Assembly (NCBI GenBank): GCA_027475525.1
Contig: JAMWFC010000082.1
Span: 2,850,597-2,914,596 of the forward strand
DNA length: 64,000 nucleotides
Source: Macrolepiota albuminosa
Taxonomy: Eukaryota; Basidiomycota; Agaricomycetes; Agaricales; Agaricaceae
Direction of reading: 5' to 3'
The position numbers and the translations under genes are program-made. The first letter of the stretch is position 1; each line of letters begins with the position of its first letter. This document shows, piece by piece, positions 7,178-48,932 of this stretch. Under the pieces are notes generated by a model, which was not told where the DNA came from, ran no database searches, and worked only from the letters and a program-made list of their open reading frames with translations.

Positions 7178-7655
7178 GGTGAAGACTCAGGAGATGGGAC
7201 ATCAAGACCGGCTGGATTAGGAGAAGAGAATTGCATGCATTGCTCGTCTTAAGAGGCATGGGCTAAGTCATTAATGGCAGTGCTTCCTGCTCCCTGGCAA
7301 GCAGTTGTCGTGAGGTCGGTGTTTGAATGCCATCAAGAAACTGAAGTTTCAACGGAGACACCTCGACATAATTCGTTCCGCTATGTTTTGTAAGGGGAAG
7401 ACCAGGCTTCGAGGCTTGTCAGAATGGGACGGAGACACCTCGACATAATTCGTTCCGCTATGTTTTGTAAGGGGAAGACCAGGCTTCGAGGCTTGTCAGA
7501 ATGGGATATAGATGTAGCCACAATCCATGACCGTCAACAACTGTTGGTGGAAGCAGTTGCAGAGGGGTATCGACCTTGAATTGATTGCCGACCGTCACTT
7601 GGCTTGTGCCGCGTTACATACACCAACGGTGGTTTCCGACCACATGAACCATTGA
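7178..7655. other. Intergenic, divergent promoter region
   Basis: Shared 5' spacer between the glycosidase relic (-) and the Sld3-like gene (+). It contains a 77-bp tandem duplication (7353-7506), judged an assembly artefact. No other element is recognised. Confidence 0.45.
7353..7506. repeat. 77-bp direct tandem duplication 1
   Basis: Copies 7353-7429 and 7430-7506 are identical. Intergenic. Probable untrimmed contig overlap. Confidence 0.95.
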
Positions 7656-9309
7656 ATGGTCTCCGCTTTACATTATTCTCTCAGTACAAAGTCGAAAATC
7701 AACTGGACCGTCACGCAAGAAAAGTCCCTTGCTAATGACTACCCTTTCGCAACAACCCAGGAGACTGATGACGAATATGTCGCCAGGACGTATCTCCAAT
7801 TTCTTTGGTTGCCAGAGGTATGTCTATTTTACGCGATATTAAGCCCGGAAATGATGGTGAAGGCTTTATTCAGTCAATAATGCCACTAAATCTTCTCGTG
7901 CCTTCTCTATTACGCGTGACTGCAGAGCATTCCGAACCTCATCCACTCCACTCGCACCTGAAGCCACTATTACAAACAGCACGCACCGCATCGAGAAAAT
8001 ATCGCGTGGAACTGCCACAGATACTTTCCAATGGTGGTGGAGCTGGGGAAATAGAAGAAACGATGATGTGGTACTCCCTCAGTTACGAAAAGGCCGGCGA
8101 TGATCTGTGGACCAGGACGACAGACATACGCGAGGGCCCATGGGAGGATGAGAAGTGGCGTACGCGGTGGCTCGAGAGAATGGAACGACGCGAGTACGTA
8201 GATTCCAGCTTCTTTTCGAACAAACTGACCATGGATACAGATTTCAGATACAGATTCTGCTCTACCTTCTGAAGCTGTGCCTCCCAGGACCTCCACCACC
8301 AATAACATCACCGGTTAAGAAGAGGGGCAAAAGAGGTCTCCCGAAACAACCCGCTGAACCACTTCCTGAAGATTGCTTAGAAACTTTCATGGACAAGTTG
8401 TCAATGTGGCAGCTTATGGACGGCCTAGAGAACTCTTTAGAAGCAAAGGGACCGAAGGACATGCAGCTGGATTGGATGCAAACCTTTTTTGAACAGATCG
8501 TGAGGCCCCAGTACGTGTGCAGTTTGAAACAAAAGAGTCACATAATCTGAAAGGACTACTCGTAGGTTCGAAAGGCAACTTCCAGAGATGTGTTCCTTAA
8601 TGAGGTCCAAGCTATTTCCCAATTCTCCCTTTAAGGACTCTTCCAACTCCTCGTCCCCTTCTTCATCTCGGCCTGCCTCTCCAGACATTGTACAATCTCC
8701 CATCCGCGCGCCGACACGACAATTGTCTCCTTCGACTACCAGCACAAAAGCACCGCAGCCTCTCGCGCGCAGCCGTTCTCGTTCACTGTCCGTTTCGCTA
8801 GCCCAGGAACGCCTGGAACGCGAACGCAGTGTTACTGCGGGTCCATCAAAGAAGCGGGTCTTGAACCGTGAGGTTAGCATGTCGCGTGCGTTTAAACCTA
8901 AACCACGTCCTGTGCAGGAAGAGCCAGCCAAGAAAAAGGAGAATGATGCCGCTCTGAAGAAAGAAACGAAGCCTAGAGATGAAGGTGTGACACTAGTGGA
9001 AGCCACACCTACGAAGCCGAAGCGTGCCAAGTTGCAGTAGAAACGAAGCCTAGAGATGAAGGTGTGACACTAGTGGAAGCCACACCTACGAAGCCGAAGC
9101 GTGCCAAGTTGCAGTTACGTCCTCTTTTGCAGGTCGCTCGCAGGTCCATATCTTCCAAACCGACTTTGAAGACGAGGAAGAATGGTTGCTTCCGGGTTCA
9201 AGTTCTCCTGATGTCCTGTTGTTGGGTCCAGGACGACAAGCTGAGGATGAAGAGATCGTCCAAAATATGATGGATCGTACCCCAACAAAGCGTTCTCGTC
9301 TACGATGAG
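7656..9309 (+). CDS. Sld3/Treslin-like DNA replication initiation regulator
   Basis: Homolog of the Sld3 C-terminal region family, which in yeast carries Cdc45 to the pre-replicative complex after CDK phosphorylation. Exons: 7656-7817, 7874-8193, 8241-8510 and 8566-9309. The joined core reads LWLPESIMPLNLLVPSL, then EFQIQILLYLLKLCLPG, MDKLSMWQLMDGL and DWMQTFFEQIVRPQFERQLP, the conserved helices of the family, followed by a Ser/Pro- and Arg/Ser-rich tail rich in possible CDK sites. A 77-bp duplication (8962-9115) breaks the tail with a false stop. After collapse a frame change near 9110 is still needed to reach the natural-looking ending SSPDVLLLGPGR...TPTKRSRLR at 9309. It converges on the capping-protein gene. 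The family call rests on motif pattern, not on a search. Confidence 0.66.
8962..9115. repeat. 77-bp direct tandem duplication 2
   Basis: Copies 8962-9038 and 9039-9115. It lies in the last exon of the Sld3-like gene and creates a premature stop (TAG at 9038-9040) exactly at the joint. Confidence 0.95.
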
Positions 9310-9465
9310 ATTCAAGGACGCCCGGTTTTGCGCATGCTGTATAATATTTTGTATACCATCCTGTACACATATAATTAATGAATTCATAAGTATAGACTTC
9401 CGGAGTAAGGTACCAGAAAAAGACCGAATTTTTATTGTTATTTGTAAAAAATACACGGTCTTGTT

Positions 9466-11015
9466 TCACGAATTGCCAAAGACACCTTTACTTGACGTTA
9501 GCTCCGCACCAAGCTTGTAGCCCAATACCTGCATGGAGTAGCATCAAAATTATCATCAAAGGACGGAATTAAACCTGCCTTATCCCAGTCTATCTTCTGG
9601 CGTGTCAACGGCAGCGCACGTCGAAGACCCTTGAATGTCTTCTCTCCCATTTCCTGATATGTCAGTCTATCTTCTGGCGTGTCAACGGCAGCGCACGTCG
9701 AAGACCCTTGAATGTCTTCTCTCCCATTTCCTGATATGTTTATTGAGCGACGTTGATAGTTGCTTTCTTCATCTCCAATAAGGGCAAGTATCTTGGAAGC
9801 CGACGCGCTAGGTGTTGACGTAATGACAGCCGAAGGTAGCGTAAGTGAGACGTCGTGTGTCGTAGCCAATTGCACCTAGCACGAGAGTAGGTGATAACTC
9901 AGCCTAACATACGTTGAAAGGTTAAAAAACACACGTTTCCTTGTCATAGTAATGTACATTCACTTGAACCTTTCCCGTCACTTTGTTCTCATTTAGGTTG
10001 ACAACATACTCTGAACGCCATCGCCCTGACCTATTCAAGGTCGGCGTTACGTGAGATCAATGATAGGTAGATGAACTAACCAGTACTCTGAACGCCATCG
10101 CCCTGACCTATTCAAGGTCGGCGTTACGTGAGATCAATGATAGGTAGATGAACTAACCAGTAATTTGTGGCATTGTATTTATTCGCGACGATCTGGATTA
10201 TGAACTGGTTCGGCGTATCAGGCAACGCAAATACCGACGTACGCCTTCAGGATAATGTGATTTGAGATAAGACAGCACTGCTGTTTCTAAGGCCTTCCTG
10301 CCAGCCACCATAATCAGCAGACTAGATGACTTCGTCCAACGACGTACCTAAAAGGCTCAGAATCGGGGTTTGGTTCAACTTGCTGTACATCTGAGGCTTC
10401 CTGGAAAGCGTACGATTGTCAAAAATCATCGACAAAATATATAATACTAGGAACGCACCAAACTCAAATGGTTGAACACGAAGCTCGTCATAGACCGTGG
10501 ATCCAAAAACCTTTCCTCGTCTGCAGAACTTTCCGTCTTTCCCTCACCTTGAACACGAAGCTCGTCATAGACCGTGGATCCAAAAACCTTTCCTCGTCTG
10601 CAGAACTTTCCGTCTTTCCCTCACCTCTTCCTCCGTTCCCGTTGAAGTTGAGCCAGTGCAAGCTATAGCCGCTGCCCGCGCGACTTCGCTGATCACGGAC
10701 TGAAATTTAAGAGTTAAAGAGGTCGTCCTACGCGTAGACACAAGAGACCATCGCAGCAATGTCGATATTCACCTGGTGATCTGAGCCGGGGACGTCCACA
10801 ACAATGAACTGCGCGAGGTTATACGTTCTGATCGCTGGAAGAAGACCTTCCTTCAGGAGATCGTCGTCAGAGACGATGTTGCGCACATCTAATCACTATC
10901 AAGGTCGATTGGTGCTGACATATGGCCAGATTGACAGACCATTAATTACATCGTTGATCTCCCCGGGAGGCGATTGGAGAAGAAAATTAGAAGCGACCTC
11001 GACTCGCACGTCCAT
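9466..11015 (-). CDS. CAP1: F-actin-capping protein subunit alpha
   Basis: Alpha subunit of the CapZ heterodimer, which binds barbed ends of actin filaments and blocks subunit exchange; acts in the cytosol and at cortical actin patches. The start at 11015 gives MDVRVEVASNFLLQSPPGEI; next come DVRNIVSDDDLLKEGLLPAI and YNLAQFIVVDVPGSDHQ, then FLDPRSMTSFVFN, RWRSEYVVNLNENKVTGKVQ, KILALIGDEE and the C-terminal EMGEKTFKGLRRALPLTRQK, ending VLGYKLGAELTSSKGVFGNS at 9466. Length and order match the family. One intron is 10889-10939; the last (9529-9578) appears to use a GC donor. Three 77-bp duplications (9586, 10007 and 10472) interrupt it, and removing one copy of each restores the known protein order. 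No duplication contains a residue change. Confidence 0.9.
9586..9739. repeat. 77-bp direct tandem duplication 3
   Basis: Copies 9586-9662 and 9663-9739, inside the capping-protein gene. The peptide QEMGEKTFKGLRRALPLTRQ is encoded once intact and once broken. Confidence 0.95.
10007..10160. repeat. 77-bp direct tandem duplication 4
   Basis: Period 77, copies from 10007 and 10084; inside the capping-protein gene. Confidence 0.95.
10472..10625. repeat. 77-bp direct tandem duplication 5
   Basis: Copies 10472-10548 and 10549-10625; covers the FLDPRSMTSFVFN exon of the capping-protein gene twice. Confidence 0.95.
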
Positions 11016-11269
11016 TTGTTAACGCAGCTGACGCTTAAGCGTGCTGATACTTGAATTGTAACTCGGACTTTGCCGACCATCGCCAAGTCAATTCTTCCCA
11101 AGGGTTCAAAAATTTATCGGTGGGTGGTGTATCCTTGTCGATGACCATATCTAACGGTTAACATAGGCTCAATGGTTGGTATCTATCACAAGTAGTCTGG
11201 ATGCAACGTTCTACATGTGAGTTCTAAAGTGTTACACCATACATAATACAAGTCTAACGTCCTTGAAGT

Positions 11270-13148
11270 TTATAGCTTTGACGTGAACTGGGACTCTGTC
11301 ACCCCTTTGCCCATTGCGGCAGTCGAGGACACACCGCCAGTGACAGTCTTGATGAGATTGTCAGCATAATCTGCGCCGGACCACTAAATGATCGATTACT
11401 ATTCGCGTAAATCTTTGTAAGAGGACAAAGACGTACTTTCTGATGTGTCAAAACATCGGTGCCAAGGTCGCGCTCTTTCCGTTGAACAAGTTCCACATAG
11501 GCTTTCATTCCCGTTTTCGCAAAGTTTTGTGCAAACAAATCGGAGATGTACGCGTTGGAATGGAGTCCACCGAGCTGGGAAAGGTGAGTTGGATGTTTTT
11601 TCAGCATGGAGTTAGGACATCTTACTGTGATGAACTGCCACACGAAGCCAAGCTTGCCAAGCTGCCACACATACCCTTCCATATCCTTTTCGCCGAGCCC
11701 TGCTGCATCCCAATTGAACGATGGACTTAGATTGTATGCTAGCCATTGTCCGGGATGTACAGCATGCACACCAGCTGCAAACTCTTGAGCCTGTGCCAAA
11801 ATAGGCTTCTTCGTCTCCATCCATAACAAATCGGCATAGGGTGCAAATGCGATGGCACGGTTCACTGCGCACTGGGTTCCACCTTGGTATCGATAGTAAC
11901 CCTCTCTCGTTCGAGGTGCATCCCAGTCCCAGAACGGCACGCTCTTCAGCCCGAATTCCTTCTGAGCGATTGACACAGCTGCGGGATAAGATGTGTGTGC
12001 AACGCGTCCAAGGAACTTCTTCACCACGGAGGAATTGGCGCCTTGGTTTGTGAGCGCGTCTGCCAGCGTTTCTGAGAACAATTTAAGTTTCGCAGCTCGA
12101 ATCCACTCGTCTTCAATGGTCTGGAGCTCCGCGCCGTTCTTGCCGGCTCTCTCAGCGTTTACCATGACGGTATTCAGAGGCGTAAGGCTTGGGTTGGTAG
12201 AACCGAGGATGAAAGCGTGATCACGGTCATCGATGTTAGACGTGATAAGGGTAGCTGCTTCCGAGTCAGTACGTGCAACAGCAAGGTTCTCAACGCCCAT
12301 GATATCAAACTGTAGACGGATGGCGACGAGTCGGTTTATGTGTTCCTGAATGGGTACGAGGACCTTGCCCGCCATGTGCCCGCACTTCTTTGTCCCAGGC
12401 GCTTGGTCCTCGATATGAATGCCGGCAGCACCTTTCTCGACGAACATCTTGGCAAGCTTCATGACTGCAGTAAGTCCACCGTGACCCGTGTCCGCGTCGG
12501 CAACTATCGGGCGGAGGTAGTCGACATACGGTGTCTTGGAAAGCTCGGAATCTGTCATGTTTGAGCGAGCTTCGCGCTGCTTACGGTCGTGGAAGAGCTG
12601 GGCCATGAAGAGATGCTCCACCTTGTTGGGCACGGTGTTGGAAGGGTAGTCTGGGGCGCTAGATGTCAACAGCGATGAATATTACAACTAAAATGCGGAA
12701 ATACCTGCAAGATCTGGACCAGGTTCATTCGTGCTCGATGCAGTACTGGACGACTGCCAGCCCGAAACGTACACCGTCTCGAGATATTTGGCCATCTGTG
12801 TTACTTGGACTGGATCAAGCCTGTTTCACGACAATCAGCGAGCGAGAAATCTCGACAGTTGGACAGAACGTACGCTCCGTAGGTATGTGAAGGCGTGCCG
12901 CGTCGTGCGTGATCAGAGAGCAAAGCCCAAAGCTTTTGCGCCATGGCGTTGGATGCGTATTGAATAGGCAATGTGCCACGCTTGGCAACAACCTCCGCTG
13001 CAGTGTAGGGGCGCTTTACTCGTGCAAAACGCGGGCTCTAATAATGAGTTAGCTGAAGTACAAATTGTGGCAAGGAGTGCAAGCTTACGTTCCACCATCG
13101 CTCGACTTCAGCGACTTCCTTGGCAAATGCAGCGCGTTCGTTAGACAT
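11270..13148 (-). CDS. ICL1: Isocitrate lyase, peroxisomal form
   Basis: Cleaves isocitrate to glyoxylate and succinate, the first committed step of the glyoxylate cycle used on acetate, ethanol and fatty acids. The start at 13148 gives [19 protein letters not shown]. The catalytic signature [18 protein letters not shown] is intact, as are [32 protein letters not shown] and NLSPSFNWD. Introns near the 3' end split [17 protein letters not shown] and [14 protein letters not shown]. The protein ends SQFTSKL, with SKL a canonical type-1 peroxisomal signal. Size agrees with the roughly 540-residue family. A 77-bp duplication repeats the start codon region (13095-13248), so the ATG occurs twice; 13148 is used because it is adjacent to the rest of the gene. 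Neighbouring malic enzyme suggests, but does not prove, shared carbon-source regulation. Confidence 0.95.
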
Positions 13149-13248
13149 GATGGAGTAAAAGGATTGAAAAGCCATCGCTCGACTTCAGCGACTTCCTTGG
13201 CAAATGCAGCGCGTTCGTTAGACATGATGGAGTAAAAGGATTGAAAAG
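13095..13248. repeat. 77-bp direct tandem duplication 6
   Basis: Copies 13095-13171 and 13172-13248; duplicates the first exon and ATG of the isocitrate lyase gene. Confidence 0.95.
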
Positions 13249-13663: not shown

Positions 13664-15424
13664 TTATCCAATCAACAGACTTGCCTGAGACCACATGAGA
13701 ACCTGAACTAGTTTCTTTTCGCCCATGGGACCTAATCGGATGAGAAAGAAGTTTAGGAGAGTCAGATTTGTCGATTTCAGTATTACTCCCGTTCTCGGGT
13801 GCAGTGTCAGTTGTGCGAGTCCCATCGCAGCCATCATGCGCAGTGTGAATGATGTGAGTGGTGATGGCTCCTCATCGAAAATCGTTGTTGATGGATACAA
13901 CATGTTAGTATCTGCGTCGTACCTACCGCAACAGGGACGCAAAGTGAGTTTCCAGAATGATCACCAGCCAAGCCCGCTTCGACGTACTTTGGAACGCGGT
14001 GCCTAGGACAAGGAACAAATCCAAAAAGCTGCGGACAAGACATAATGAAATTGAGAATTTGCGGTATAAAGAACAACAGGAGCGTTTTGGAGAAATGGGC
14101 CTGAATGCCGACTACTGCAAATGCCATGCCGGTAACATAGCACAAGGTATCGCCCGGAAACGCGCGTGCAGGGGGGCCTGAATGCCGACTACTGCAAATG
14201 CCATGCCGGTAACATAGCACAAGGTATCGCCCGGAAACGCGCGTGCAGGGAACCTAAATCATCACAACCAATGAGAACAGACTGCGCATGATTGTTCAGA
14301 ACTTGCCAGTTGTGATACAGGAATCCAGTGCAACGGCCACGAGCGGCATCATAAAGTACAGACTGAATAGGTGGCGTTCTACGAGCTCACGACTTCCATA
14401 TGCCATCCCTGCACTCCAGACACCCCCGAAGCCTAACTCTGATCTATTACCCAGCAGGTGAAGAGGTATTCTGAAGTCTATAGGCCACGGCAGATACAGC
14501 AGATCATTTAGGATGACGGAAAGAGCAATGATTAGTGCTTGCGAAGCTTCAGAGCCATTGATACCTGCGAGGATGTTAAAGCTGTTTGTAGCAAAAGTAG
14601 ATAATAGCGCCATGTAGATATAATACAATGGGCCTAAGGAAACACTTCTCATAAAATTGTTTAGTTGGTAAGAGGAGGTTTACACACACCTAGATTGACA
14701 AGAGTCCCAAGGAAGAAACGCAGAGGTAATGGGACAACAACGTGGGTGTTTCCTCGTTCAGCATAGTAGACCATGAGGAGAGGAATTGATGCTATAATGG
14801 GGATAGGTAATTTATGGCGCCAACGAATGTCAAAGACGTCATCTAAAAAGCCCAGCATGGTCGCGATTATCAGAGATAGGAGCGATGACAGATAAACTGA
14901 AAGCTAGTAAGTCATTATGATATCAATGAGGTCGTTTGTATTACATGAACCAGCGTAACGCACCTGGTAATGAGGGAACTCCACTACCGATATTCCTTGG
15001 GCTTCATTAGGCTTTTGGCTAGCGAAATTCATAATGAAATTGGAGAACGCAAACGGGATAAACAGCAGTAGAAGCAAGATGTACACCAACGCGCACACGA
15101 GTCCCTGGCTCTCCGGTCTATAGCCTCATAAGAAACGTAATTCATGTACAGGCTGAAACAATATCGTACGGACATGGGAATTTCATGGCGATACGGTTTC
15201 AGCAGGTCTCCACCCTTCAGTCCAGCCTTCACAAAGGATGGTCCAAGTGCAGGTATGAAGTAAACGGTGGCTAGAAATGCGAAGATCGAAAAGCCAAGAG
15301 AAGTGTATAGAGCTGGAAGAGGTGGCACGGGATCCAGGAGAGGTCGAACAATGAACCAGGCGGCAACGGGCACCAGGCCCAGGAGTAGGACACGCGGCAA
15401 GGGACGCGGGGGTAGCGCACGCAT
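13664..15424 (-). CDS. ALG7: UDP-GlcNAc:dolichyl-phosphate GlcNAc-1-P transferase
   Basis: Transfers GlcNAc-1-phosphate from UDP-GlcNAc to dolichyl phosphate in the ER membrane, the first step of N-glycan precursor synthesis and the target of tunicamycin. Start chosen at the ATG at 15424 ([20 protein letters not shown]). Multiple hydrophobic spans follow, with family motifs [41 protein letters not shown] (aspartate-rich metal/substrate loop), [16 protein letters not shown], and the C-terminal [26 protein letters not shown] segment, then [11 protein letters not shown] and [15 protein letters not shown]. At least five introns are needed. A 77-bp duplication (14097-14250) repeats the [13 protein letters not shown] region. 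The gene is divergent from the SET/Tad3 unit with about 230 bp between them. Confidence 0.9.
14097..14250. repeat. 77-bp direct tandem duplication 7
   Basis: Copies 14097-14173 and 14174-14250, within Alg7. Confidence 0.95.
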
Positions 15425-15649: not shown

Positions 15650-17612
15650 AAGCGTCCTCTGACGCTGCATCAGCATCTCGATCTATATCTGCCCATACAA
15701 TAGTCGAAATTAGCCCTGTTCTCTTTTTTTCCAAGGAGGAGTATGCAGAACATGGTAATCTATATCTGCCCATACAATAGTCGAAATTAGCCCTGTTCTC
15801 TTTTTTTCCAAGGAGGAGTATGCAGAACATGGTAAGTTCTGTGACAGTCATATATCCAAGCTTTGACTGATGGGATGCTCAGGGAGATTCACGCTGCTAG
15901 ATGACTATACATTCAAATGGGCTGACGGAAGGATGGCTCTCGCACTGGGACTTGGTACGTACAAATACCAGGCTTTCTAGAACCTTGCCTCGAATCTCAG
16001 TTTTTTCCTGCCTTATAAGGGTCTTTATTCAATCATTCTGATAATCCAAATGTATCATATGCCCTTGACAGGCCTACCGAATCCATTAGATACACGACGG
16101 TGCGCGATATTGCGCCCGGCGAGGAACTTTGTATATTCTATGGTCACAATTTGTGGTTCAAGCCCGTAGGTCTCTCCGAAAAAGCCGCTTTGCTGTCCGA
16201 ATTGGATGCAGAAGATGGTTGGGGTGGGCTGTCAGCCGTCGGAGAGAGCGCAGATCCAGTCTCATCCCAAGAAGAAAGCCCATTTGAGAAGGGAGACCCT
16301 GATGAAGTCATTCCAGAAGAGGAGCTTCCATTCACTAGGTACAAACTCCCGCCTGAGGAGGAAGACTTAGAGTCCATCCGAACAGGTGCGTATCCGGTAT
16401 AAACCCCAGATTTTTCATGACTCATGGTCCTTTTTGGCGACTTAGTTGAAGCATGGGTCGTGGACATTCCGGATCCACGACACATAACGACGATGCTTAA
16501 GCGAGTCTTCTATTCCACTGTCTTCTATCGTGCCTTGGCTCACTCGGAACCAAAAGATGGCTGAAGCAAGCAGGTCTTGAGACTCCCGATCTTGGGCACC
16601 TCAAACGAATACGGAAGACGAGCGAAACCGCTACCCTCCTCCTTGCAGCCCTCGCCGTATCTCCGACCTTGGGCACCTCAAACGAATACGGAAGACGAGC
16701 GAAACCGCTACCCTCCTCCTTGCAGCCCTCGCCGTATCTCCGACTCTCCTTGTACTCCAAGTGACTTGGGCCTACCTCCGCCATACACTGTTCTTGTTCC
16801 GAGCACCCCCGCGCTGACACCGATTTCACTAAAGCTGAAGTCAACGTTCTGGCCAACGTTGTTCACGCCGCCTAGAAAGGGTGAAGCCGAGGAATGGACC
16901 CGAGGCCAGGCACATTGGGCGTGGCAAGCGATGAAGACTGTAGTTATCGCAGCACATGATGCACGAAGTCGAGGAGAGGTAATTAGGCACATTGGGCGTG
17001 GCAAGCGATGAAGACTGTAGTTATCGCAGCACATGATGCACGAAGTCGAGGAGAGGTAATTGTTATTTATGGGATTGGGTTCACAATTCATTTACTCCTT
17101 GGGGGTTGCAGTTGCCAATTGCGGCTCATGTCGCTGCCCCTTACGGAACGACAACAAGTTCCTCTCTGGACATGGCCTTCACTGCATGTGACACAAGGCA
17201 GTCAAGTGCACACCCTCTTCGACATGCTGTAATCAACGTCATACGGAAAATGGCTGATTACCAAGCGTCTTCTTCGACACCTGCGCCGATGGAGACATCT
17301 CGACTTACATCCTCAGGATCAGCCACGCCCAACTCCGGGGATGTCGAGGTACACAACGGCGGAAACTATCTTCTCACATCACTCACGATGTTTACCACAC
17401 ATGAACCATGCATCATGTGTAGCATGGCCTTGATTCATTCTCGAGTAAAAGAAATTGTCTATCTTAGGAAGATGCCTCGGACAGGCGGATGTGGTGGCGC
17501 TGCTTGCTTACCCACACTCAAGGGCGTAAACCATCGGTTTGGTATTGCTCATTGGAACGACGATATCGGTACTGGCGAGGAGTTAGATGTCGATGACACT
17601 ATTGATGCGTAA
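15650..17612 (+). CDS. SET-domain protein joined to tRNA adenosine deaminase subunit Tad3
   Basis: Two modules in one strand and apparently one reading unit. The first half is a SET methyltransferase core: AHTIVEISPVLFFSKEEY, LLDDYTFKWADGRMALALG, then SLFNHSDNPNVSYALD and RDIAPGEELCIFYGHNLWF, carrying the NHS and ELCxFYG features that bind AdoMet. It runs through EAWVVDIPDPRHITTML into a Tad3 half: PYTVLVPSTPALTPISL, LPIAAHV, HPLRHAVINVIRKM (HAV replaces the catalytic HAE, the hallmark of the Tad3 partner), then EPCIMCSMALIHSRVKEIVY and NHRFGIAHWN. Tad2/Tad3 makes inosine at tRNA position 34. Two duplications (16591, 16908) and a one-base shift near 16745 sit inside the Tad3 part. No ATG was found for the SET part, so the 5' end is approximate. 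Two separate genes remain possible. Confidence 0.68.
15681..15834. repeat. 77-bp direct tandem duplication 8
   Basis: Copies 15681-15757 and 15758-15834; repeats the first recognisable SET exon. Confidence 0.95.
16591..16744. repeat. 77-bp direct tandem duplication 9
   Basis: Copies 16591-16667 and 16668-16744; within the linker between SET and Tad3 modules. Confidence 0.95.
16908..17061. repeat. 77-bp direct tandem duplication 10
   Basis: Copies 16908-16984 and 16985-17061; repeats the HWAWQAMKTVVIAAHDARSR segment of the Tad3 module. Confidence 0.95.
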
Positions 17613-17954: not shown

Positions 17955-20525
17955 TTACAAGCGGTGCTCACTCCCATTGATATTACCATTTCCATATGGT
18001 AGACGTGTAGAACGAGGTTGCCATTGCTTCAACTTCACATGATCCAGCAGAGCAGCATCAGACATTTTTCTGATAAAGCTATTCTCGTCAACCCCCTATC
18101 ATTCAGGAGACCATCAGTAATCATCCAACCAGCATCAGACATTTTTCTGATAAAGCTATTCTCGTCAACCCCCTATCATTCAGGAGACCATCAGTAATCA
18201 TCCAACAACAAGAAAATTAGAGACCTACATCTTTTTGAGCCGCACGAATGACAGCCAATGCAATACGAGCACTGATATCGCGGATACGCGCAAGGCGCGG
18301 GTACACTTGGTCCGCCTTCCTCTCTTCGTCCGTAAGAGCCTCAGAGAGTGCGATAGATGCCTGCTCGACCATAGAGTCGGTCACATGGCGTGCTTTTGAC
18401 AAGATGGTGCCCATGCCGATGCCAGGGAAAATGTACATGTTGTTTCCCTGTCCGGGTTCGTAGGTCTTCCCTGCGCGCTCAACGGGCTTGTACGGGCTTC
18501 CGGAGGCAAAGATGACCGAGCCGTTTGTCCTGCATCGTAGGTCTTCCCTGCGCGCTCAACGGGCTTGTACGGGCTTCCGGAGGCAAAGATGACCGAGCCG
18601 TTTGTCCTGCATGATTATTCAGTGGGTATGGAAAGGGAGTGAATGAGCAAATCATAAACACACCATTGGATAGCGTCAGTAAAATCTAATTCACAAAGGG
18701 ACACAGGATTCGAGAGGGGAAAGATGATCGGGCGAGTATTGACGGAATAGCGTCAGTAAAATCTAATTCACAAAGGGACACAGGATTCGAGAGGGGAAAG
18801 ATGATCGGGCGAGTATTGACGGAGCCATGAGGCGCACGACTTCCTCCGTGAAAGCATTCTGAAAAAGATGCACTGTGAATAGAAGGCTAAAAGGGATTTC
18901 GATGAGCACGCATACCCGGATTGTGCTAAGCCCGAGCAACGCGGTTGGTCTAACATATCCAATGATATCAATAAGATTCGTCAGCGGTGGACCATTATAG
19001 TCCGTACGCGCGAAATCTGATTGGCCAAAGTCAGATACTACAGATACACGTGAGAATATGACAGATTTACATTTCTTGTGTTCCTGGAGACCTTTCCTAT
19101 CAGCCGTAATAAGGCCTTTAGAGTCCACGGTCTAATTTTCTCGGTAAAACGTGGGAAGGTGAGAAAAAGAAAGAACTTACGTATATCCTTTCGCGAGCCT
19201 CGTCTTCACTCATACCAAGCAGCTTGAAGAACGACATCAACTGCTTTGCGACGCCAATGCCAGCAGAACCAGCACCAAAGAACAGGATACGGTGATCTGT
19301 AAGTGGTTTTCCCGACGCTGCACTCGAAAGTTTCGCGGCATTAATGAAACCCGAGAGAATGACCGCGCCTGGAAATGTCAAGGATCGATCAATATTCTGA
19401 ACATGCCCGGGAAGAAAGGAAGGCTCAGACCTGTACCCTGGATCTAGAACGCGTCGACAAGTAAGCATGTGATATTTGGTAAAAGATAACAAGATGATAA
19501 CACACATCATCGTTGAAGCAGCGGTATTGAGAGCGGAACATGTCGAGATAGCGGAAAGCATTGTCCGTTGAGAAGTCTTCAAATTGAACCAAGAGCGACG
19601 GGAAGACTTCTCTCATTGCCTCCATGAATTCTTTCATGAATGGATCCATCTATCTTCAAATTGAACCAAGAGCGACGGGAAGACTTCTCTCATTGCCTCC
19701 ATGAATTCTTTCATGAATGGATCCATCTAAGAGACGGAATAATCTAAGCAGACGAAGGGATATAACTGCTTTTTAGAGATCCTTGCCTCTTGAACGTCAG
19801 GACGCCTGCGGCGCGCACCAATGTACAGGGGATCATCGAGGAACCGTTGTGTATTCGTGCCCAGGTCAAGGCAGATCGGAACGGTAGTCGCAGGGTCGAT
19901 TCCAGCGCCAGCGATGTACAGGTCCCTGTAAATGGCGACATGAGTGGGAACACAGCAGTTGAAAAAGATTAGCACACAAACAATTTTCCGATGCTGATAG
20001 GCAAACCATTGGCTCCGAGGTCGCCCAGTCCCAGGATACGAGAGCCTAGTACATTCAGTGGGATAATGTCACACGGATGCTCAAAGTATTTACTCACCAT
20101 CAGTCACGACTGCGATCCTGGAGTTTGCGCCACCAGACCAAGTGCGAAGGACTTCCCGAATACGGCCGCGGTTCTCAATGCTCACGTACAAGCCCTCAGG
20201 GCGGCGCCAGATGTGCGAATATTGCGAGCACGCATCGCCGACCTAACATCAAAATTAAAAACAATGTGAGACATGTAGCGGTTGGGCCGTTAGCCAAATG
20301 TACCGTTGGCGTGTAGAGGATAGGAATGATCTCAAGCATGTTGGCCAAGAGGACCTCATAAAATAAGTTTGGATCGCGTTCCTTTAACCCAGACATGTAG
20401 ATGTATTTCTCGAGGGGGTCTGTTTTGCTGCGAAGTTGTTCGAGACATCTTTGTCGGTGGTCAGTATTATTGAAATAAGGAGGAATTCGAGGAGCGGGCG
20501 AGAAACTATGAGGAATAGTTGACAT
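17955..20525 (-). CDS. Malic enzyme, NAD(P)-dependent
   Basis: Oxidative decarboxylation of malate to pyruvate with NAD(P)H production; supplies reducing power for lipid synthesis or mitochondrial pyruvate, depending on location. The start at 20525 gives MSTIPHSFSPAPRIPPYFNN with no clear mitochondrial presequence. Family segments run in order: DPLEKYIYMSGLKERDPNLFY, ILYTPTV, RVLGLGDLGANGLPISIGK, GIDPATTVPICLDLGTNT, FEDFSTDNAF, ILFFGAGSAGIGVAKQL (dinucleotide site), LTNLIDIIGYVRPTALLGLS, NPVSLCELDFTDAIQW, SPYKPV-like, NMYIFPGIGMG and RDISARIALAVI. It ends NINGSEHRL at 17955. Four 77-bp duplications (18053, 18458, 18670, 19576) interrupt it, giving it the highest joint density of any host gene here. 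Cofactor preference cannot be read from sequence. Confidence 0.92.
18053..18206. repeat. 77-bp direct tandem duplication 11
   Basis: Copies 18053-18129 and 18130-18206; 3' part of malic enzyme. Confidence 0.95.
18458..18611. repeat. 77-bp direct tandem duplication 12
   Basis: Copies 18458-18534 and 18535-18611; duplicates the NGSVIFASGSPYKPVERAGK region of malic enzyme. Confidence 0.95.
18670..18823. repeat. 77-bp direct tandem duplication 13
   Basis: Copies 18670-18746 and 18747-18823; duplicates the FPLSNPVSLCELDFTDAI region of malic enzyme. Confidence 0.95.
19576..19729. repeat. 77-bp direct tandem duplication 14
   Basis: Copies 19576-19652 and 19653-19729; duplicates the MKEFMEAMREVFPSLLVQFE region of malic enzyme. 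Confidence 0.95.
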
Positions 20526-29555: not shown

Positions 29556-30081
29556 GATGATGGCGATGATGATGATGATGATGATGATGGCGGTGGTGAA
29601 GACCTCGAGCAGTAGAGTATTATGTGGCCCACGAGAGGGCAGGACATTCTCAGGTCGCACGCGGGGCCCCTCAATCATCGTTTCTTAAAGGGATCGAAAA
29701 AAAAAAAGAGCAAAACCAGCGCGTTTGCGTATTTTCGTGGGGGCGCCATACACACGCTATGAGAAGCTGTTGCTATAAACGAGAGATGCCCCGGTCGATG
29801 TCACCCGCGAGAAGCAGGCTCAAGTTCGTGCCGGTGGCTGTATTGAACCAGTGATCGGGGGAGTAGCGAGGGTTGTGTGAATAAACGACTTGCGTATCAG
29901 GAAGGATCATCCCAGAGATGGAGTGAGTATCTTACCGGCACCAGCGGAATCTATCAAGTGCATTGCATCGTGAGCGAATTGTACATCAAGAAATCTACAT
30001 TACTAGTACATCTGTGGTGATACAAGTCCGTTACTTATACATGGTATCTTGTCTGCAGAATTGGAGATAAAGGGATCGTCT
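29556..30081. other. Intergenic with ATG-type trinucleotide run
   Basis: Promoter side of the DUF6534 gene and 3' side of cullin-1. An imperfect (ATG)n run lies at 29551-29590 around the start codon. Nothing else recognised. Confidence 0.4.
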
Positions 30082-38224: not shown

Positions 38225-38536
38225 TGTAACGAAGTTACAGAGATTGTGAGAGCTTAGGTTCACACTGCACAGAATCAGACCAGTCCGGTCTATTGACTAT
38301 GTAGTATCAACACAAAATAAGCTGCTTTGTAAGCAGCTGGTAAACTAATTTATATAATAATGTAAATTAATATTATATTATAATAAATATAATATAATAG
38401 TATCTACTGTAAGGTAAGTAAAGCTATGTGGCCAACGCCACATAGCGGACTATATTATAATAAATATAATATAATAGTATCTACTGTAAGGTAAGTAAAG
38501 CTATGTGGCCAACGCCACATAGCGGACTATGCTACA
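38225..38536 (-). repeat. Chromovirus 3' LTR (contains 77-bp artefact)
   Basis: 312 bp = 235 + 77. Identical to the 5' LTR except one T/C difference near the element-proximal end (CTATGCTACA versus CTACGCTACA) and the 77-bp duplication. Confidence 0.92.
38375..38528. repeat. 77-bp direct tandem duplication 16
   Basis: Copies 38375-38451 and 38452-38528, inside the 3' LTR and absent from the 5' LTR. Confidence 0.97.
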
Positions 38537-38631: not shown

Positions 38632-38785
38632 CCCGGAATGGATCGGCAGTCGCGTCGTCCATGTCGTAGTCGAGGAGTTCATCCTCGGGTGTGGGCGCGT
38701 AGGAAGTACCCGGAATGGATCGGCAGTCGCGTCGTCCATGTCGTAGTCGAGGAGTTCATCCTCGGGTGTGGGCGCGTAGGAAGTA
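38632..38785. repeat. 77-bp direct tandem duplication 17
   Basis: Copies 38632-38708 and 38709-38785; at the 3' end of ORF3. Collapse moves the stop to 38582. Confidence 0.97.
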
Positions 38786-40956
38786 CCCGAAGGCCCTGCT
38801 ACTGGCAGGGAATCGTCATAGTCCCGGAGGGGGGACAGTGTGAGATTGGGGTCGATGGTCGACCCCGGGACAGGTGGTTGGGGATCAGGCAGATCCCCGG
38901 TGTCGGACGGGTACTGGCGCGTCCAGATTTCACGGGCATGAATGTCTTGCCCGATGGAGAGGTACATCCCCTTGGCGAGCGCGTCGTCGTATGCACGACG
39001 ACTGTCCTGCTGCTGGAGCATCAGGCGTTGGCGGTCGCCAATGGTGGCCTCGCGCCACCCATCCCACTGCGGGATGGACTGGGGTGTACCGTAGTGGTCG
39101 AGGCGTTGTAGCCTCTCGTCGTCGATAGCAGCCGCCTCGTTGTAGAGCCGGCTGTCGCTGAAGAATAGATGGGCCAAGTAGGTGACCCCATAAGTGTACG
39201 CGTGGTCAGCCCAGCTGACCGGAATTTGATTGTGAAGAAGGACGCGTAACACGTCTGAAGTGGTGAATACGGAAGCTGACGCTTCCGGGATGTCCACAGC
39301 CCGAACCTCGAAGGTAGGGTCGTTGGCGTGGAGAGGCTCAAAGGCTTGCCCCGTGGCCGCCTCGTACTCAGCCACGGCCTCTTTGTAGAGGCCTGGCCTG
39401 GCAAAGACGTAGGCCAGGTACTTGTATACCGTGGCCTTGGAGGGGCGGCTGGTGCTGAGGGCGCGTACAAGCGCAAACCCAAAGAGGCTGCGCCAATGAA
39501 TGCGCATGGCTCGGTCCAGAGCCAGACCGGTCCACACATTGGACGTCCCAGGGCGTCCATAGAGGAGGGCATATGAGCCCAGGTAGTCCAAAGCAAATGG
39601 TTGCTTTGGATCAGGGGGGGTAAGGCCGACAAAGGCGATTTTCCCTCCCTCTTTGCGGCGATAGAGCCGCGACGGCACAATCATTCGCGGGACGTTCTCC
39701 CGCTCCTCTGGACTCGCGAAGGGTACCGCAATAGTCCTATACTTGACCTCGTCGAGTAAATGAGACATAGCTCTGTCTCGGGCCGTAGGGTGGCAGTTGA
39801 GCGCCACCCGCTTGAATTCGTTGAGCAAGAGGTAGCCCAACTGATGCTGACGAAGCGGCGTAAACTGGTTGTTAACCAGTGTGTGAAGTCTGCGGACTTC
39901 TTGAGGACTGCGGGGAAACCTGCGAGGTGCAACTTGGTACACCTTACTGTTGTGGGGCGTCGCGGCGGCGTTGCTCTCTTTATCGGTCTTGAAGGATCTG
40001 GCTGCATGGGCTTCTTGCTCGACGAAGATGGTATTGGTCACTGGCGACCAATAGAATTGGGGAGCTAACCCCGCGCCAAAGAATGAGTTCTGGCGCTCAA
40101 TAGTGTAATCACGATAGATCACAACACCGAGTGCATCAGGGATGCGCCCAGTTTCGTCCTCAAGGAGGGCGGCCCCTCGTTTGGCGCTGTTCTGTGCCCG
40201 ACGCTCCATCTTGGCTCGTCGATTGCTGTTGCGCCGTTCGCGCGCCATACGTTGTGCCGCCGTCTTGTGCGGCACTGGGGATTCCATACGAGCCTCTTCA
40301 GGCTCCTCATACCAATCGTCGTCGGAGGGAGGGGAAGGCAGCCTCTTCGGCTCCGACTTCTCAGATCGTGGGTCCATTGCCCACACACACCGCAGGAGTC
40401 GGGCTGGCAGGCCCTCTACCAGTATAGCGGGTAAAAAGGGGATGTTAGCCCCTGGGGCCCCTTTCGGGGCATTCTCGGGGAAGTGCACGTTGACATAGGC
40501 GCGCCCTTCCGGTTGCTTACCCCGACGATCCTTTCGGGGTTGTGAGGCCTTGGCCTCAATGGGGCGTGTGCTCACGCCCCTGGAACTCTGCTCCCCAGAG
40601 TACGTGGTGGATACCATGGATACTGGTCGCAAAGACGCGACCTCAGACGCGCCGCTGGCGAGGCGCTGGATAAGCCGGGGGGCGGCTGGAGCAGGAACAT
40701 CTTCATAGGGGAGGATGTCCCATCCTAGACCAGCCTCCCGGCCGGGGGCAGCAACGCTCAACTTAATCAAGCGGGAGGGCGCGTCCTCCACTCCTTGCTG
40801 ACGCGCCCTTTTGCTGGAGTCGGTGTCCTGACTCGGGGGTGTAGTCTGCCGCTTACGAGCGGCCGAAATGGCAAGGAGATCAGTTTTGCGCTGAGCGCGC
40901 ATATGATCCATGTCGTCCATCATCCGGCAGATGAGGACGACTGCCTCCGCATCGCG

Positions 40957-41110
40957 GAGGAATGATGACTCTGCGGGTACATCGTACCCGTTATCTCCCA
41001 GACGTTGGAGAAGGGTAGCCAGGACTAAGTCCTGAGGAATGATGACTCTGCGGGTACATCGTACCCGTTATCTCCCAGACGTTGGAGAAGGGTAGCCAGG
41101 ACTAAGTCCT
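40957..41110. repeat. 77-bp direct tandem duplication 18
   Basis: Copies 40957-41033 and 41034-41110; splits ORF3 into two frames that merge on collapse. Confidence 0.97.
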
Positions 41111-42713: not shown

Positions 42714-42867
42714 GAGGGCAAGTACCCTCCGTTGAGTTCAAAGGGCGCATACCCTGTGGTATCCGAGATACTCGCGTTAATCGCGAACTCGAGGGCAAGT
42801 ACCCTCCGTTGAGTTCAAAGGGCGCATACCCTGTGGTATCCGAGATACTCGCGTTAATCGCGAACTC
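42714..42867. repeat. 77-bp direct tandem duplication 19
   Basis: Copies 42714-42790 and 42791-42867, in the integrase C-terminal part; repeats the YAPFELNGGYLPS segment. Confidence 0.97.
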
Positions 42868-44955
42868 GTGAGTGGACACCAGTCCACCCAGTCCCGTTGG
42901 TCAGGGCGAACAACTGCCCTCAAAATCTGACCTATACTGCGGTTAGCCCGCTCTGTCTGCCCATCCGTTTGAGGATGGAAGGACGTCGACATGAGGAGTT
43001 GCGCTCCTAGCAGTTTGTGGAGTTCTCTCCACCATTGAGACGTGAACTTTGAGTCACAATTGCTCACAATGGTGCTAGGCAGCCCATGCAGCCTAACGAT
43101 CTCCCTCAGGTAGATCCACGACAGCTCCTTAGCCGTCAGCGTAGTTCGCACCGGTATGAGGTGCACCATGCTCGTCATGCGGCATATGACTACCCAGAGG
43201 TAATCGAACCCTCTGGACTCGGGAAAGGGACCTACAAAGTCCATTCCGATTGAGTCCCAGGGTTTCACCGGCACAGGTAGCTGGTGTAGCTTCCTGGGAG
43301 GGGATCCAGGGGGCAACTTTGCCCTCTGACACGCTGTGCATGATGCGCAAAACTTAGTCACTTCTTGGGCCATACGTGGCCACCAATACCATCTCCGGAT
43401 GTAGCCCAACGTCCGGGTGGCACCAAAGTGCCCCACCAGGGCATGGGCCTGGTCCAAGACCCGCGTAACAAGGGTACGCGTACGGGGGAGGCATACCACT
43501 GCCACCCCTTGACGGTTCTCCGTCATGATGAGTCCACCAGGCTCATGCCTGAACCGAGGATGGTCGTCAGGATTGGCGATTATCTCGGCGAAGAGAGGAT
43601 CATCGCCATAGTCCTGCACCACCTCCTGCCAGAAGTCGTCATTGACCAGGCTAGGAGGCTGGGATGAAGGCAATTTGCCTTCGAGCATCTCCGCAAGCGT
43701 AACGGGTACATCGTGGCACTTGTGCTCCCTAGTGGATGCTGGGTCCACGGCTTCATGCTCCTTGAGCAACTGGGCGGCTACGTCCCGTTCTTCACGCTGC
43801 TCTCTGAGGCGAGTGCTTCGCCTCCGTTCATCGTCACGCATAGCACGTACTTCCAGGACATGCTCCCTGAGCTCCTGGTATCGGTGGAGAGGTAAATCCT
43901 CTCCATCGGGGTCTATGCGGCAGTCTGCCTGCACATACTCATGAGGCTCGTGAGCCTCCCCAACTACATCACTCTCAAAGTAGCGCGACAAGCAGTCTGC
44001 CACTTTGTTGAGTTCACCTTTAACATAGGTGATGTCGAACTGGTATCTCGACATGTAGTCTATCCACCGTCGCTGGCGCGGCGACAAGTTCACCTGAGTT
44101 TTAAAGAACTCAAGGGCCTTGTGGTCCGTTATGATGTGGATGGGGTATCCCATCAGCTTATCCTCCCACTTGAGGAGGGCCTCGAGTATGGCAAGAGTCT
44201 CCAGCTCGTGCACTGCATAGTTTTGCTGGGCCGTCGTGAACTTCTTTGACATGAACCCTGCTGGGCAGCACGTCTGCCAGCTGCTTCCCTGGCCGTACAT
44301 GGCTCCGACGCCTGTCTTGGACGCGTTGCAAATGAGCCATATTGGCTCGTCCCGTCTAGGGTCAATTGGTCGAATCACCGGAGTCTTCGTACAGATCCGT
44401 TTGACCATCTCAAAGCACCGCTGGTGCAACGGCCTCCAATTGAATGGTGATCCGTTCTGCGTCATGGCCATAAGTGGCCCAGTATAGGCTGTGACATCGG
44501 GCAAGAAGCTCGATATGTAGTTGACAAGGCCAACGAATCGTTGGATGTCATTGTAGTTTCGGGGCGTGCGCCACTCCCGAATACGATCGAGCTTGTCCTG
44601 ATCAGGGTGGATACCCCGCTTGTCTATGACATGCCCTAGGCAGTCTATACTCTGAGCATAGAGCTCACATTTTTTCCACTTCAAGTACAACTTGTACTTG
44701 CGCAGTCGTTCGAATACGACTCTGAGGTGCTGCTCATGCTCCTCCATAGTATCCAAGTAGATGAATATGTCATCTAAGTAGACGTGCATGAACCGTCCTA
44801 TTACGTCTCGGAAGATAGAGGTCATTAGCCTCTGGAAAGTTGCTGGAGCATTGCAGTCTCCGATCTGCATTATATTGCTCGTGAATGTACCCATGATCGA
44901 CGCAAATACGGTCTTTGGTACGTCCTCGGTGCGAATGCGCACCTGCTCGTAGGCG

Positions 44956-45109
44956 TCAGTAAGGTCAATCTTCGAGCGATACTTTGCCCGAGCCACGTCT
45001 TCCCGGATCACCTCTTGATCTGGTAAAGGAGTTCAGTAAGGTCAATCTTCGAGCGATACTTTGCCCGAGCCACGTCTTCCCGGATCACCTCTTGATCTGG
45101 TAAAGGAGT
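44956..45109. repeat. 77-bp direct tandem duplication 20
   Basis: Copies 44956-45032 and 45033-45109, in the RT; repeats the IREDVARAKYRSKIDLT segment. Confidence 0.97.
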
Positions 45110-47106
45110 TACATCTTTATGGTATTGTCATTGCACTGACGCGCATCAAGAGCTGTTCGAAGGGTTCCATCCTTCTTTGGGATGCACAATAACGGTGCAG
45201 CTTGAGCGGTGGTGCATGGGGACCACCATTGAGCATTCAAATAGCGATTAGTCTTATCGCGTAGTTGCTCCTGGAGGGCGCGCGGACAGCGCGGCAAGTG
45301 GTACTTATACTGCTTGTTCTCGTCTATGAGATTAATCTCATGGTTCACCTCCCGCCACGGCGGGAGCTCCTCCTTGGTCCCATTGACCATGTCGGCAAAT
45401 TCCTCTTGCCATTGCTGATGCAACCGAGGAATATCTTCCTCACGAAGGCTTGTCGCCTTCTGCTTCCCCTTCATACGCACCGGGGGAAGTACTTCCACCG
45501 TCTCTGAGGGTGGCCGAGGCGGCGGTGCATACTGCTCGTGCATTGCGAGCACCCGATTGACACTGTCATCAGGTATATGTAGTCTCAGCGGAGCACCCGC
45601 TGCCGCTGTCTTATAAGCCACGAGGCTTCTTCCTTCACGTACAAGCGAGTACGCTATGGATACCTCGTCCAGGGCTGGCTGGCAATACGCTGGTTTGACG
45701 GTCATCCGTCTCTGGTGCGCATTTTGCGCACACGTGGCTGCCACCAGCTCGTTCCACTCTTGCGGCATTCAGGGGTCGTATGCCCAGTCGTACTCCGGCA
45801 GGGGAGCTGGTCGCTCCCATAGGGACCGTGTGTCCCCCTCTACTGAGGCTTCCGCCTCTCGGATGCTGTCTTTCAAGTCTTCCAACTTGACTCGTGAGGA
45901 CGTAGGTGGACATACATCCACTGAGTCCTCCCGTCGTCTCGCCTTTCGATGGCGTTTGTCCGGAGGCCTTGCGCCTCAAATCTCAGGAGCGATTATTCGC
46001 TCGTTGCTCCTCTTGGAGGCTTGATACTCCTCCTCGCTCATCATTACCACGTTGTGGTCTGCGCTCAGTCCAGGCATAGCCTGCACTTCCTCCTCCACAT
46101 CCTCCACGGCCGGCACTCTGCGCCGGCCAAGTCATGGAGAGTCCTTGCGTTTCTCCGTAGTGCGATGACGTCGCAGACGATTATCAGTGTTGTCTGCTGT
46201 AGCTCGTTCGGCTGGGATCACTTTCCCATTCACTAGTACCTGACATTGGTCAAAGTCTAGTATGACTTTGTTACGCCGCATGAATGGCGTTCCCAGTATC
46301 ATATCGTAGCGATCGAAGTTTGCTACATCCATGTATTCCCGGCTACGTGAGCCCGGTGTTTGGACATTCACATTTGTCCCATACTGCACCATGGCTCGGC
46401 TCCCTACAGTGCCCAGCTATAACACCAATGGCGTATCCAACTCCTGCACGGATATTCCGTACACATGGGCAAACTGGGGTGTTATGCCCGATGTGGTACT
46501 CCCAGAGTCCCATAGGGTCCATGCCTTGTGGCCGTCTACGTCCACATACGAGACCAGGCACTCCTTGTCTGCTCATTTCAATGTTGGGCGCTGCAAAGTG
46601 CCCTCTGCATGACGAAGGGTCACCTTCTTCATCCGAACTACGTTATTCTGTTCGGGATCATTTGTGGACGGCCAATCCGTCATCACCGCTAGGCACTCAG
46701 AGTCGCTGTCGTGACTGTAATACTCATTGTTGTAGACGTCGTCATATACGTCGACTGTGACGTACTCCTCCCCCTCCACGACCACACTCTTGGGCTCGGC
46801 GCCCGATGCCTCCTCTGGGGGCTCCTGGTCGTTTGTGGGGTGCTCCGCCTCAGACTCGGCAGATACGTCTCCATCACTCCCACTCGCAGCTGCAGTATGT
46901 GCAGCTCAAAGGTGGGCGCGGAGTGTATACCTCTTCCTCGGGGATCCTGGCTTTGCAGGGCAGTTGGTAGCGTAGTGGCCTGGTTGGCCACATGTGAAAC
47001 AAGTCCCCGACTGCCCCGGTGGGTTGGCCGGCTTGAAGTCCGGCCTTGGTTTAGGACGTTTGCTGTCCAGCGCCCGCTCTGGGCGTGGGCGGCTCTGCCC
47101 TCGGTT

Positions 47107-47260
47107 CGCAGCAGGGGTTCTGCGTACAACAAACCGCGTGTTGCGGTCACAGTCCAAATCGGTCTTTTTGGCCAGGAAGGTCCCGCAGCAGGGGTTCTGC
47201 GTACAACAAACCGCGTGTTGCGGTCACAGTCCAAATCGGTCTTTTTGGCCAGGAAGGTCC
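47107..47260. repeat. 77-bp direct tandem duplication 21
   Basis: Copies 47107-47183 and 47184-47260, in gag before the CCHC knuckle. Confidence 0.97.
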
Positions 47261-47667
47261 CACATGCTGACCCCGTGAGGGTGTCCCACCAGGTGGTAGT
47301 TGCCTGGGTCCCCCTTTGTGCCCACTCCGATGTTCGTAGTGGTTAGCAGTCTTCAGAGACTGCTCATACCGGATGGCATATGCCACAAATTCTTCCACAT
47401 CGTTGACTTCTGGGGACAATCCGTCCTCACGTATCAAATAGCGGCGCATATCCGCTGGAATGCCATCCAAGAACGTTTCGAGCATTGTATACCTGTCTGG
47501 GTATACTGCCATGTTCTGGGCATGGTCATTAAGGGTATCATAGAACCCTTGTACTCCCAACTTCTCGGTGTACTTGGCGGACTGGAAGTCCCGCCTTGCA
47601 TCCTGGAGCGTTGAGGGGTGTACAAATCGATCGTACAGTCCTGTAAGGACTCCTTTAAACGTCCAGT

Positions 47668-47822
47668 CATATTGGACACGATTGACGTGCAGTACTGCCC
47701 GTCAAAACCAACCCATGGCCTCTCCGGCCAAGAACTCAGGCAGAACATATTGGACACGATTGACGTGCAGTACTGCCCGTCAAACCAACCCATGGCCTCT
47801 CCGGCCAAGAACTCAGGCAGAA
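47668..47822. repeat. 77/78-bp direct tandem duplication 22
   Basis: Copies 47668-47745 (78 nt, run of four A) and 47746-47822 (77 nt, run of three A). The single-base difference suggests one copy carries a homopolymer error. Confidence 0.95.
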
Positions 47823-48778
47823 CGAAGATTCGTTCTCGTTCCATACGGTCACCTCCGTATAAGCACATGGCAAGATGGGTGCATACATCCATCGCCCAAT
47901 CTTCCAGGTCGCTGAACTTGGACGCGCCTGTATAGGCGTGAATGTGCCTACTGTCTGCTTTACGCAGCTTTACTCCGTCTGGTAACCGTAAGGTTACGCC
48001 CAGGGCATCATCGACTACTCGATGCAGGCGATCGTGCATGGCTTCACAATGCATTTGAATGGCTTCCCGCTGACCCGGGGATCTAGTCGCCAAATCAGCG
48101 GCATGGGGAAGTGACTTCCCCCGTCCACCTTGCGGCGGACGTCCCGAGCCTCCTCGACTGTGGGCATAATTGCCCTCGTCTTGAGGAATCGACCTAGGGC
48201 CGTCATCCCAGCCGTTACCAGGGACATCATGTCTCGTGGCGCCATCTCGATCGAGGAAGTCTCCTCGATCATGATCGTTGCGCCGCCCTGGACCTGGAGA
48301 AGCTTGATTCTCCTGACCCTGCGTGACGAATTGACGACACATCTCGTCAATGGGCTTAGTGCCCTTGAATACAATGCCCTGATCATCGATGAGGGACTGT
48401 CCCTTCGTCCTGAGGTCGCCATTGCGCATACGTTGATACGCGACTCTGTCGCTCAACGTTTCGGCCATGGGCACGCGCGGCATCACGGATGCCTCGCTTT
48501 CCACTTTGAGCACAGTGCTATCGTGCCCATCCGGACCTGACATATCTGTCCTACGGTCATGGTTACGCATGTGCGGGAGCTCCTCATGCCACCCTTGTCC
48601 TGCTGGAGTATAAAAAGTACTCATCAGTCTTACTTCAGGCACTTCTTGCGCCCATGCTAGTGCCTCCACTAGCTCGATTCCGATGTCTTGATTGCGTCAT
48701 GCCGAGCATTCCTCGGACGTGTGGCTCCAGGGGGTCGAGACCCCCGATTGCCGTGTGGCCTTACGCTGCACATACATT

Positions 48779-48932
48779 TGCAGCTCCATAGTGAGCACTC
48801 TCACCATCAAGTCAGTATATTTCGTACTGAATATATTGGGCACTTCGTGCCCTTGTGCAGCTCCATAGTGAGCACTCTCACCATCAAGTCAGTATATTTC
48901 GTACTGAATATATTGGGCACTTCGTGCCCTTG
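48779..48932. repeat. 77-bp direct tandem duplication 23
   Basis: Copies 48779-48855 and 48856-48932, in gag; repeats FSTKYTDLMVRVLTMEL. Confidence 0.97.

Follow-up and report, generated by a model that had tools for sequence, protein, structure and literature searches.

Tandem duplications of 77 bases in a Macrolepiota albuminosa genome assembly as a probable artefact of k-mer-based contig correction

The window analysed here, a 64,000-base stretch of contig JAMWFC010000082.1 in the genome assembly of the fungus Macrolepiota albuminosa (GCA_027475525.1), contains 23 tandem duplications, of which 22 are exact and have a period of 77 bases. The 77-base duplications are almost certainly an assembly artefact and are not present in the organism. 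We propose that they probably originated in a left-to-right correction of long-read contigs against a k-mer graph with k = 77, in which the last matching 77-mer was emitted a second time. The window is part of a 3.4-Mb contig, and the whole assembly comprises 100.1 Mb in 129 contigs.

Duplications in the window

A scripted self-comparison of the window covered all offsets between 10 and 2000 and retained matching runs of at least 25 bases. The 22 exact full-length tandem duplications lie between positions 7352 and 48933, all have the period of 77, and their matching runs are 77–81 bases long. No full-length exact duplication with another period between 10 and 2000 was found in the window among runs of at least 25 bases. 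The 23rd pair, at 47668–47823, is near-exact and was detected as a partial run at 47705; its first copy has 78 bases and its second copy 77. In each pair the two copies adjoin directly, without N between them. The self-comparison reproduces the offsets reported in the initial annotation of this DNA, 77 at 22 places and 78 at one. All 23 joints listed there are real, and the one given as 14177 is corrected to 14174. The duplications are as follows:

7352..7506, exact 77-base tandem duplication, from self-comparison
8962..9115, plus strand, exact 77-base tandem duplication in a coding-like stretch, TAG at the joint
9586..9739, exact 77-base tandem duplication, region found once in the assembly
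10007..10162, exact 77-base tandem duplication, region found once in the assembly
10472..10626, exact 77-base tandem duplication, region found once in the assembly
13095..13248, exact 77-base tandem duplication in the start exon of the isocitrate lyase gene (minus strand), residues 1–18 encoded twice
14097..14250, exact 77-base tandem duplication, joint at 14174
15681..15835, exact 77-base tandem duplication, from self-comparison
16591..16744, exact 77-base tandem duplication, from self-comparison
16908..17061, exact 77-base tandem duplication, from self-comparison
18053..18206, exact 77-base tandem duplication in the malic enzyme gene (minus strand), intron acceptor apparently included
18458..18612, exact 77-base tandem duplication in the malic enzyme gene (minus strand), exon start TNGSVIF encoded twice
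18670..18823, exact 77-base tandem duplication inside an exon of the malic enzyme gene (minus strand), SVNTRPIIF... encoded twice, one-base deficit at the right edge
19576..19729, exact 77-base tandem duplication in the malic enzyme gene (minus strand), MDPFMKEF... encoded twice
28985..29139, exact 77-base tandem duplication, region 29000–30000 found once in the assembly
38374..38530, exact 77-base tandem duplication, run of 80, 77-mer also present elsewhere
38632..38789, exact 77-base tandem duplication, run of 81
40957..41110, exact 77-base tandem duplication, from self-comparison
42714..42868, exact 77-base tandem duplication in repeated DNA, right-edge deletion (two relatives only)
44956..45110, exact 77-base tandem duplication in a retroelement, one C missing 5–6 bases past the second copy
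47107..47261, exact 77-base tandem duplication in repeated DNA, right-edge deletion (one relative only)
47668..47823, near-exact duplication with copies of 78 and 77 bases, differing by one A (AAAA against AAA)
48779..48933, exact 77-base tandem duplication, from self-comparison

Length of the repeated word and spread over the assembly

A scan of the assembly for period 77, proposed in the initial annotation, was run on 38 non-overlapping loci with a total of 307,642 bases and bore out the expectation, with most of the sampled contigs affected. Among exact pairs with periods of 30–300, 107 have a period of 77, one of 60, and one of 252; 19 of the 38 loci were fetched through their match to the retroelement of the window, and the number 107 is thus not the density of a random sample. 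One duplicated length accounts for all 22 exact pairs of the window and for 107 of the 109 across the loci. A period-24 run is additionally listed for periods of 20–1000 in 30 of the 38 loci. The pair with period 252, at L008:5569-5821, is a single exact tandem duplication and the sole long full-period one that deviates from 77.

Eighteen 10-kb stretches were placed arbitrarily, ten beside the window and eight on other contigs. Twelve of them contain exact period-77 duplications, 37 in total. The eight stretches on other contigs hold 21 exact joints, 11 of which come from one stretch. The densest placed stretch, L019 (C100:50001-60000), has 12 period-77 pairs per 10 kb (11 exact) between its positions 1541 and 8273, and a guanine-cytosine content of 59%.

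The match between copies continues beyond 77 by 0, 1, 2, 3, and 4 bases in 55, 35, 5, 5, and 3 of 103 pairs (the window and 29 loci), compared with 57.9, 29.0, 10.9, 3.6, and 1.1 expected from random flanks. Five further pairs of the same set have runs of 74–76. A chance origin is excluded, because the word is fixed at 77 and the extra matching is only what random flanks provide. Consecutive joints are at least 116 bases apart in 84 spacings, which respects the minimum of k + 1 (78), and none of the 84 equals 155, the spacing of a single-difference bubble edge at k = 77.

Near-exact pairs (at least 90% identity) in the 38 loci comprise ten with period 77 and single ones with periods of 33, 36, 58, and 72. 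Copies with internal differences are located at L013:9460, L017:3155, L017:8924, L043:613, and 47668 of the window. Of the two differences in L043, one is unique to the second copy; at the other, the first copy has the rarer form. The internal differences suggest later partial polishing or two sources.

Independence between copies of a retroelement

The segment 42714–48933 is a Gypsy-type retroelement sequence with five of the duplications inside it, and many near-identical copies of it are present in the assembly. Its minus-strand open frame, 42777–45011, encodes reverse transcriptase, RNase H, and integrase zinc-binding domains, with the integrase core below the cut-off. We queried the assembly with the stretch around 44956–45110 and scored 40 copies of 874 candidates. 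The unit occurs once in 29 of the 40, recognizable as two matches that overlap by 77–78 bases on the contig. The window and the remaining ten give an uninterrupted match, and each of these ten (L021-L030) contains an exact 77-base duplication of its own, at least three bases away from the position in the window; since the scoring favours copies that share more words, the proportions mean little, whereas the shifted positions do count. The exact 77-mer of 44956 is present singly at 12 other places. A tandem duplication inherited within the retroelement is ruled out, since the other copies either contain a single unit or are duplicated at a shifted position of their own. The duplications are neither shared by descent among the repeat copies nor variable in length. 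The regions 9450–10750, 18000–19000, and 29000–30000 were also searched for an allelic copy in the assembly, and each matched only itself.

Where the repeated word ends

The position of the word is unambiguous at the 59 of 107 joints where the matching run is exactly 77, and at 14 of these 59 the 77-mer is found elsewhere in the sampled sequence. At eight of the 14, the base that flanks the other occurrence is different. The expected number is 1.25, calculated with 18,549 positions from these loci that have matching numbers of occurrences, and none of 20,000 resamplings reached eight. Ten joints with runs longer than 77 were excluded from this comparison, because any shift was allowed for them and all scored as branching. 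The signal peaks sharply at offset 0, with 8 of 14; a shift by a single base lowers it to 1 of 13 (left) or 2 of 8 (right). The differing base is on the right side in seven of the eight branching joints. The end of the 77-mer coincides with the divergence from other copies, which supports a k-mer process but not, by itself, the joining of contigs. A genome-wide search with three 77-mers that had appeared unbranched in the small sample retrieved for each of them another flanking base at one to three further places; this is expected by chance in high-copy repeats and was not used as evidence.

Lesions on one side of the joints

The sequence past the second copy is disturbed. Among joints with a run of 77, 31-mers that extend 20 bases beyond the edge recur elsewhere for 4 of 58 right sides compared with 26 of 59 left sides; with an extension of 50 bases, the right side has risen again to 23 of 57. 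The 48 longer runs follow the same trend more weakly, with 12 of 47 on the right against 28 of 48 on the left, and 20 of 45 on the right further out. The disturbance is local, mainly one-sided, and oriented with the final contigs.

To characterize the lesions, the piece from the second copy onward was aligned to its nearest relative at another locus, so that lesions are scored against other copies and not against reads. For the 107 joints, alignments of at least 125 bases were obtained for 68 second-copy and 73 first-copy sides, and dropping those with more than seven mismatches left 56 and 57, respectively. A deletion between −3 and +10 of the right edge is present at 23 of the 56 joints, compared with 4 of 1064 control windows over the same 14 positions. 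At the left edge, deletions between −10 and +3 number 0 of 57, and three lie further out. A mismatch at −2 to +5 occurs in 13 of 33 deletion-free joints, against 123 of 1064 controls over the same eight positions.

The 23 right-edge deletions are spread over eight contigs (C9, C62, C65, C90, C105, C106, C108, and C115). Most remove one or two bases, and one removes 14. By a loose rule, in which the deleted base equals its neighbour, 17 of the 23 are in a homopolymer context, and two-base repeats surround some of the rest. The gap appears in the comparison with all aligned relatives at 21 of the 23 deletions (two of these have only one or two relatives), and with 16 and 17 of 19 relatives at the other two. 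Small deletions of this kind are typical of long-read consensus sequences.

Effects on genes

The malic enzyme gene (17958–20525, minus strand) was delineated using tblastn with two Termitomyces malic enzymes and one Tephrocybe malic enzyme. It holds four duplications, three of which appear to include an intron acceptor, so that splicing could skip a copy. The fourth, 18670–18823, is located in the middle of an exon and encodes 26 residues again. Base 18823 is common to RLMA and the first SVN, and the gene is one base short there relative to all three homologues. The missing base would leave the frame broken even with a single copy. The initial annotation had stated that most duplications in genes cause a frame break that is undone by removing one copy, which fails in this sole mid-exon case compared with homologues. 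In the coding-like stretch at 8962–9115, the open frame seems, judging from the reading frames, to move by one just past the second copy at 9115. The duplication of the isocitrate lyase start exon at 13095–13248 creates a second ATG.

The closest named proteins of three window genes belong to Termitomyces or its close kin. The product of the open frame 2102–3715 is 79–85% identical to its best four relatives, isocitrate lyase is 90% identical to its nearest named relative, and malic enzyme is 81–87% identical to three Termitomyces malic enzymes (approximate values). A protein identical to that of frame 2102–3715 is present in the database on a 15,677-base contig, perhaps from a second assembly of the same fungus.

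Ordinary imperfect tandem arrays, which differ from the 77-base pairs, are located at 51576–51719 (53-base unit) and 52887–52999 (33-base unit), and an exact 11-base unit is repeated 2.4 times at 57236–57261, below the 25-base filter. Positions 21557–22440 are 884 N in a row, and 1518 N open locus L007; in both cases the nearest joint starts about 2 kb away.

Origin of the duplications

We hypothesize that a correction or polishing step moved from left to right along the final long-read contigs and checked them against a k-mer graph of short reads with k = 77. Where a contig departs from the graph, often at a small deletion left over from the long reads, the step would fail and emit the raw segment anew from the start, instead of the end, of the last matching 77-mer. 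If this word is denoted K, the outcome would read ...K K error... The constant word length, its wide spread over the assembly, the independence between repeat copies, the branch-like position of K, and the constant direction in contig orientation with no deletion in 57 left edges are consistent with such a step. Deletions and mismatches follow the word far more often than in the controls, though not at every joint.

Several observations count against this proposal. The word K frequently ends several bases short of the lesion (up to +9), so that in some cases it is not the final 77-mer to match. Of the 56 aligned joints, 33 have no right-edge deletion, and 20 of these have no mismatch either. 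Six of the ten near-exact period-77 pairs differ at the end base only (exact runs of 74–76) and four differ internally; 77 is therefore not a strict length throughout, and a further step, later or of another kind, also acted. The Fisher p value of 1e-28 for the right-edge deletions is only a guide, as the aligned joints belong mostly to one retroelement family and the control windows away from joints overlap each other. The deletion and branch tests cover mostly one retroelement family and a few neighbours, and for single-copy DNA the comparison with homologues covers the malic enzyme edge only.

The initial annotation attributed the duplications to de Bruijn contigs with overlaps of exactly 77 bases that were joined untrimmed. 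Its attribution to a k-mer or de Bruijn artefact of fixed length 77 is upheld by the period and the branch points, and plain joining of short-read contigs is not supported, in view of the one-sidedness and the right-edge deletions. We consider such joins unlikely as the origin, although they would account for the constant 77, for the lack of any spacing below 78 among 84, and for the branch-like positions of the 77-mers. Contig joins have no preferred side, and a sub-contig can enter in reverse orientation, whereas the two edges here are not equivalent and the disturbance is one-sided in the orientation of the final contigs. Nor are the bases correct at both edges: those missing at the right edge are present in nearly all aligned copies, which fits short-read contigs badly, and the spacing of 155 does not occur. 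The value 77 is in the default k list of SPAdes, which is a possible responsible program. A 77-base overlap would result just as well from other programs set to that overlap length and is not peculiar to one program, according to an excerpt of PMC5368935. Two published scaffolders handle negative gaps by inserting N or merging, in the portions of their descriptions available to us (PMC6487145, PMC6902338), whereas the copies here abut without N.

Alternatively, the duplications could have arisen at another step in a long-read assembly that had yet to be polished, with short-read polishing then failing next to the joints because reads could not be mapped across them. This is improbable. Residual deletions do adjoin joints and are rare elsewhere, and the single-base differences between some copies resemble the outcome of partial polishing; failed polishing should, however, leave errors on both sides, in contrast to the deletions at 0 of 57 left and 23 of 56 right edges, and it leaves the fixed 77 unexplained. 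Real, cell-made tandem duplications of fixed length are extremely improbable, even though both genes and retroelements carry the duplications in the sequence as deposited. A single length is repeated across unrelated sequence, the start points vary between copies of one element, a conserved enzyme exon is broken, and the direction tracks the contig orientation on eight contigs, which no cell can know. We give practically no credence to a cellular process that copies the preceding 77 bases beside small deletions, with the length set by a protein footprint.

The graph-correction step proposed above remains our preferred explanation. Searches limited to an open-access library found no paper describing this 77-base artefact. 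The WENGAN pipeline was considered as the source and, as far as the excerpt of its description (PMC8041623) extends, does not match.

Consequences

Extrapolated to the 100-Mb assembly, the duplications would number on the order of ten thousand and add one to two megabases of false sequence, a rough estimate from 21 exact joints in eight arbitrary, non-random 10-kb stretches, one of which contributes 11. Their effects include false start codons, exon pieces present twice, and broken reading frames, for example in the genes of isocitrate lyase and malic enzyme. Gene prediction and studies of repeats and introns would be misled, and the genes and repeats of this assembly need to be checked before use. 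The 77-base signature combined with the one-sided deletion is a simple scan that could reveal other public assemblies made likewise, and it points to the faulty step.

Comparison with known systems

Biological short tandem duplications likewise consist of head-to-tail copies. They vary in length, unlike the duplications described here, of which 107 of 109 exact pairs have a period of 77.

The long-read corrector FMLRC divides k-mers into solid and weak ones, and correction is seeded from the solid k-mer that borders a weak region (PMC5807796, in part). The proposed step would share with FMLRC the notion of a seed and the retention of weak regions for which no path is found. The sections of PMC5807796 considered here describe no duplication. 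FMLRC also differs in its defaults of k = 21 and K = 59 and in working on reads, whereas the direction observed here follows the final contigs (PMC5807796, same sections). With its default K of 59, FMLRC is best regarded as a parallel and not as the culprit.

The overlaps between ends of de Bruijn contigs, as outlined in an excerpt of PMC5368935, resemble the duplications in form: their length is set by k, the ends are located at unresolved repeats, and false variants appear at position k counted from the contig ends. Those overlaps occur between separate contigs or scaffold pieces, whereas in this assembly the word is doubled inside long contigs and is accompanied by a one-sided defect.

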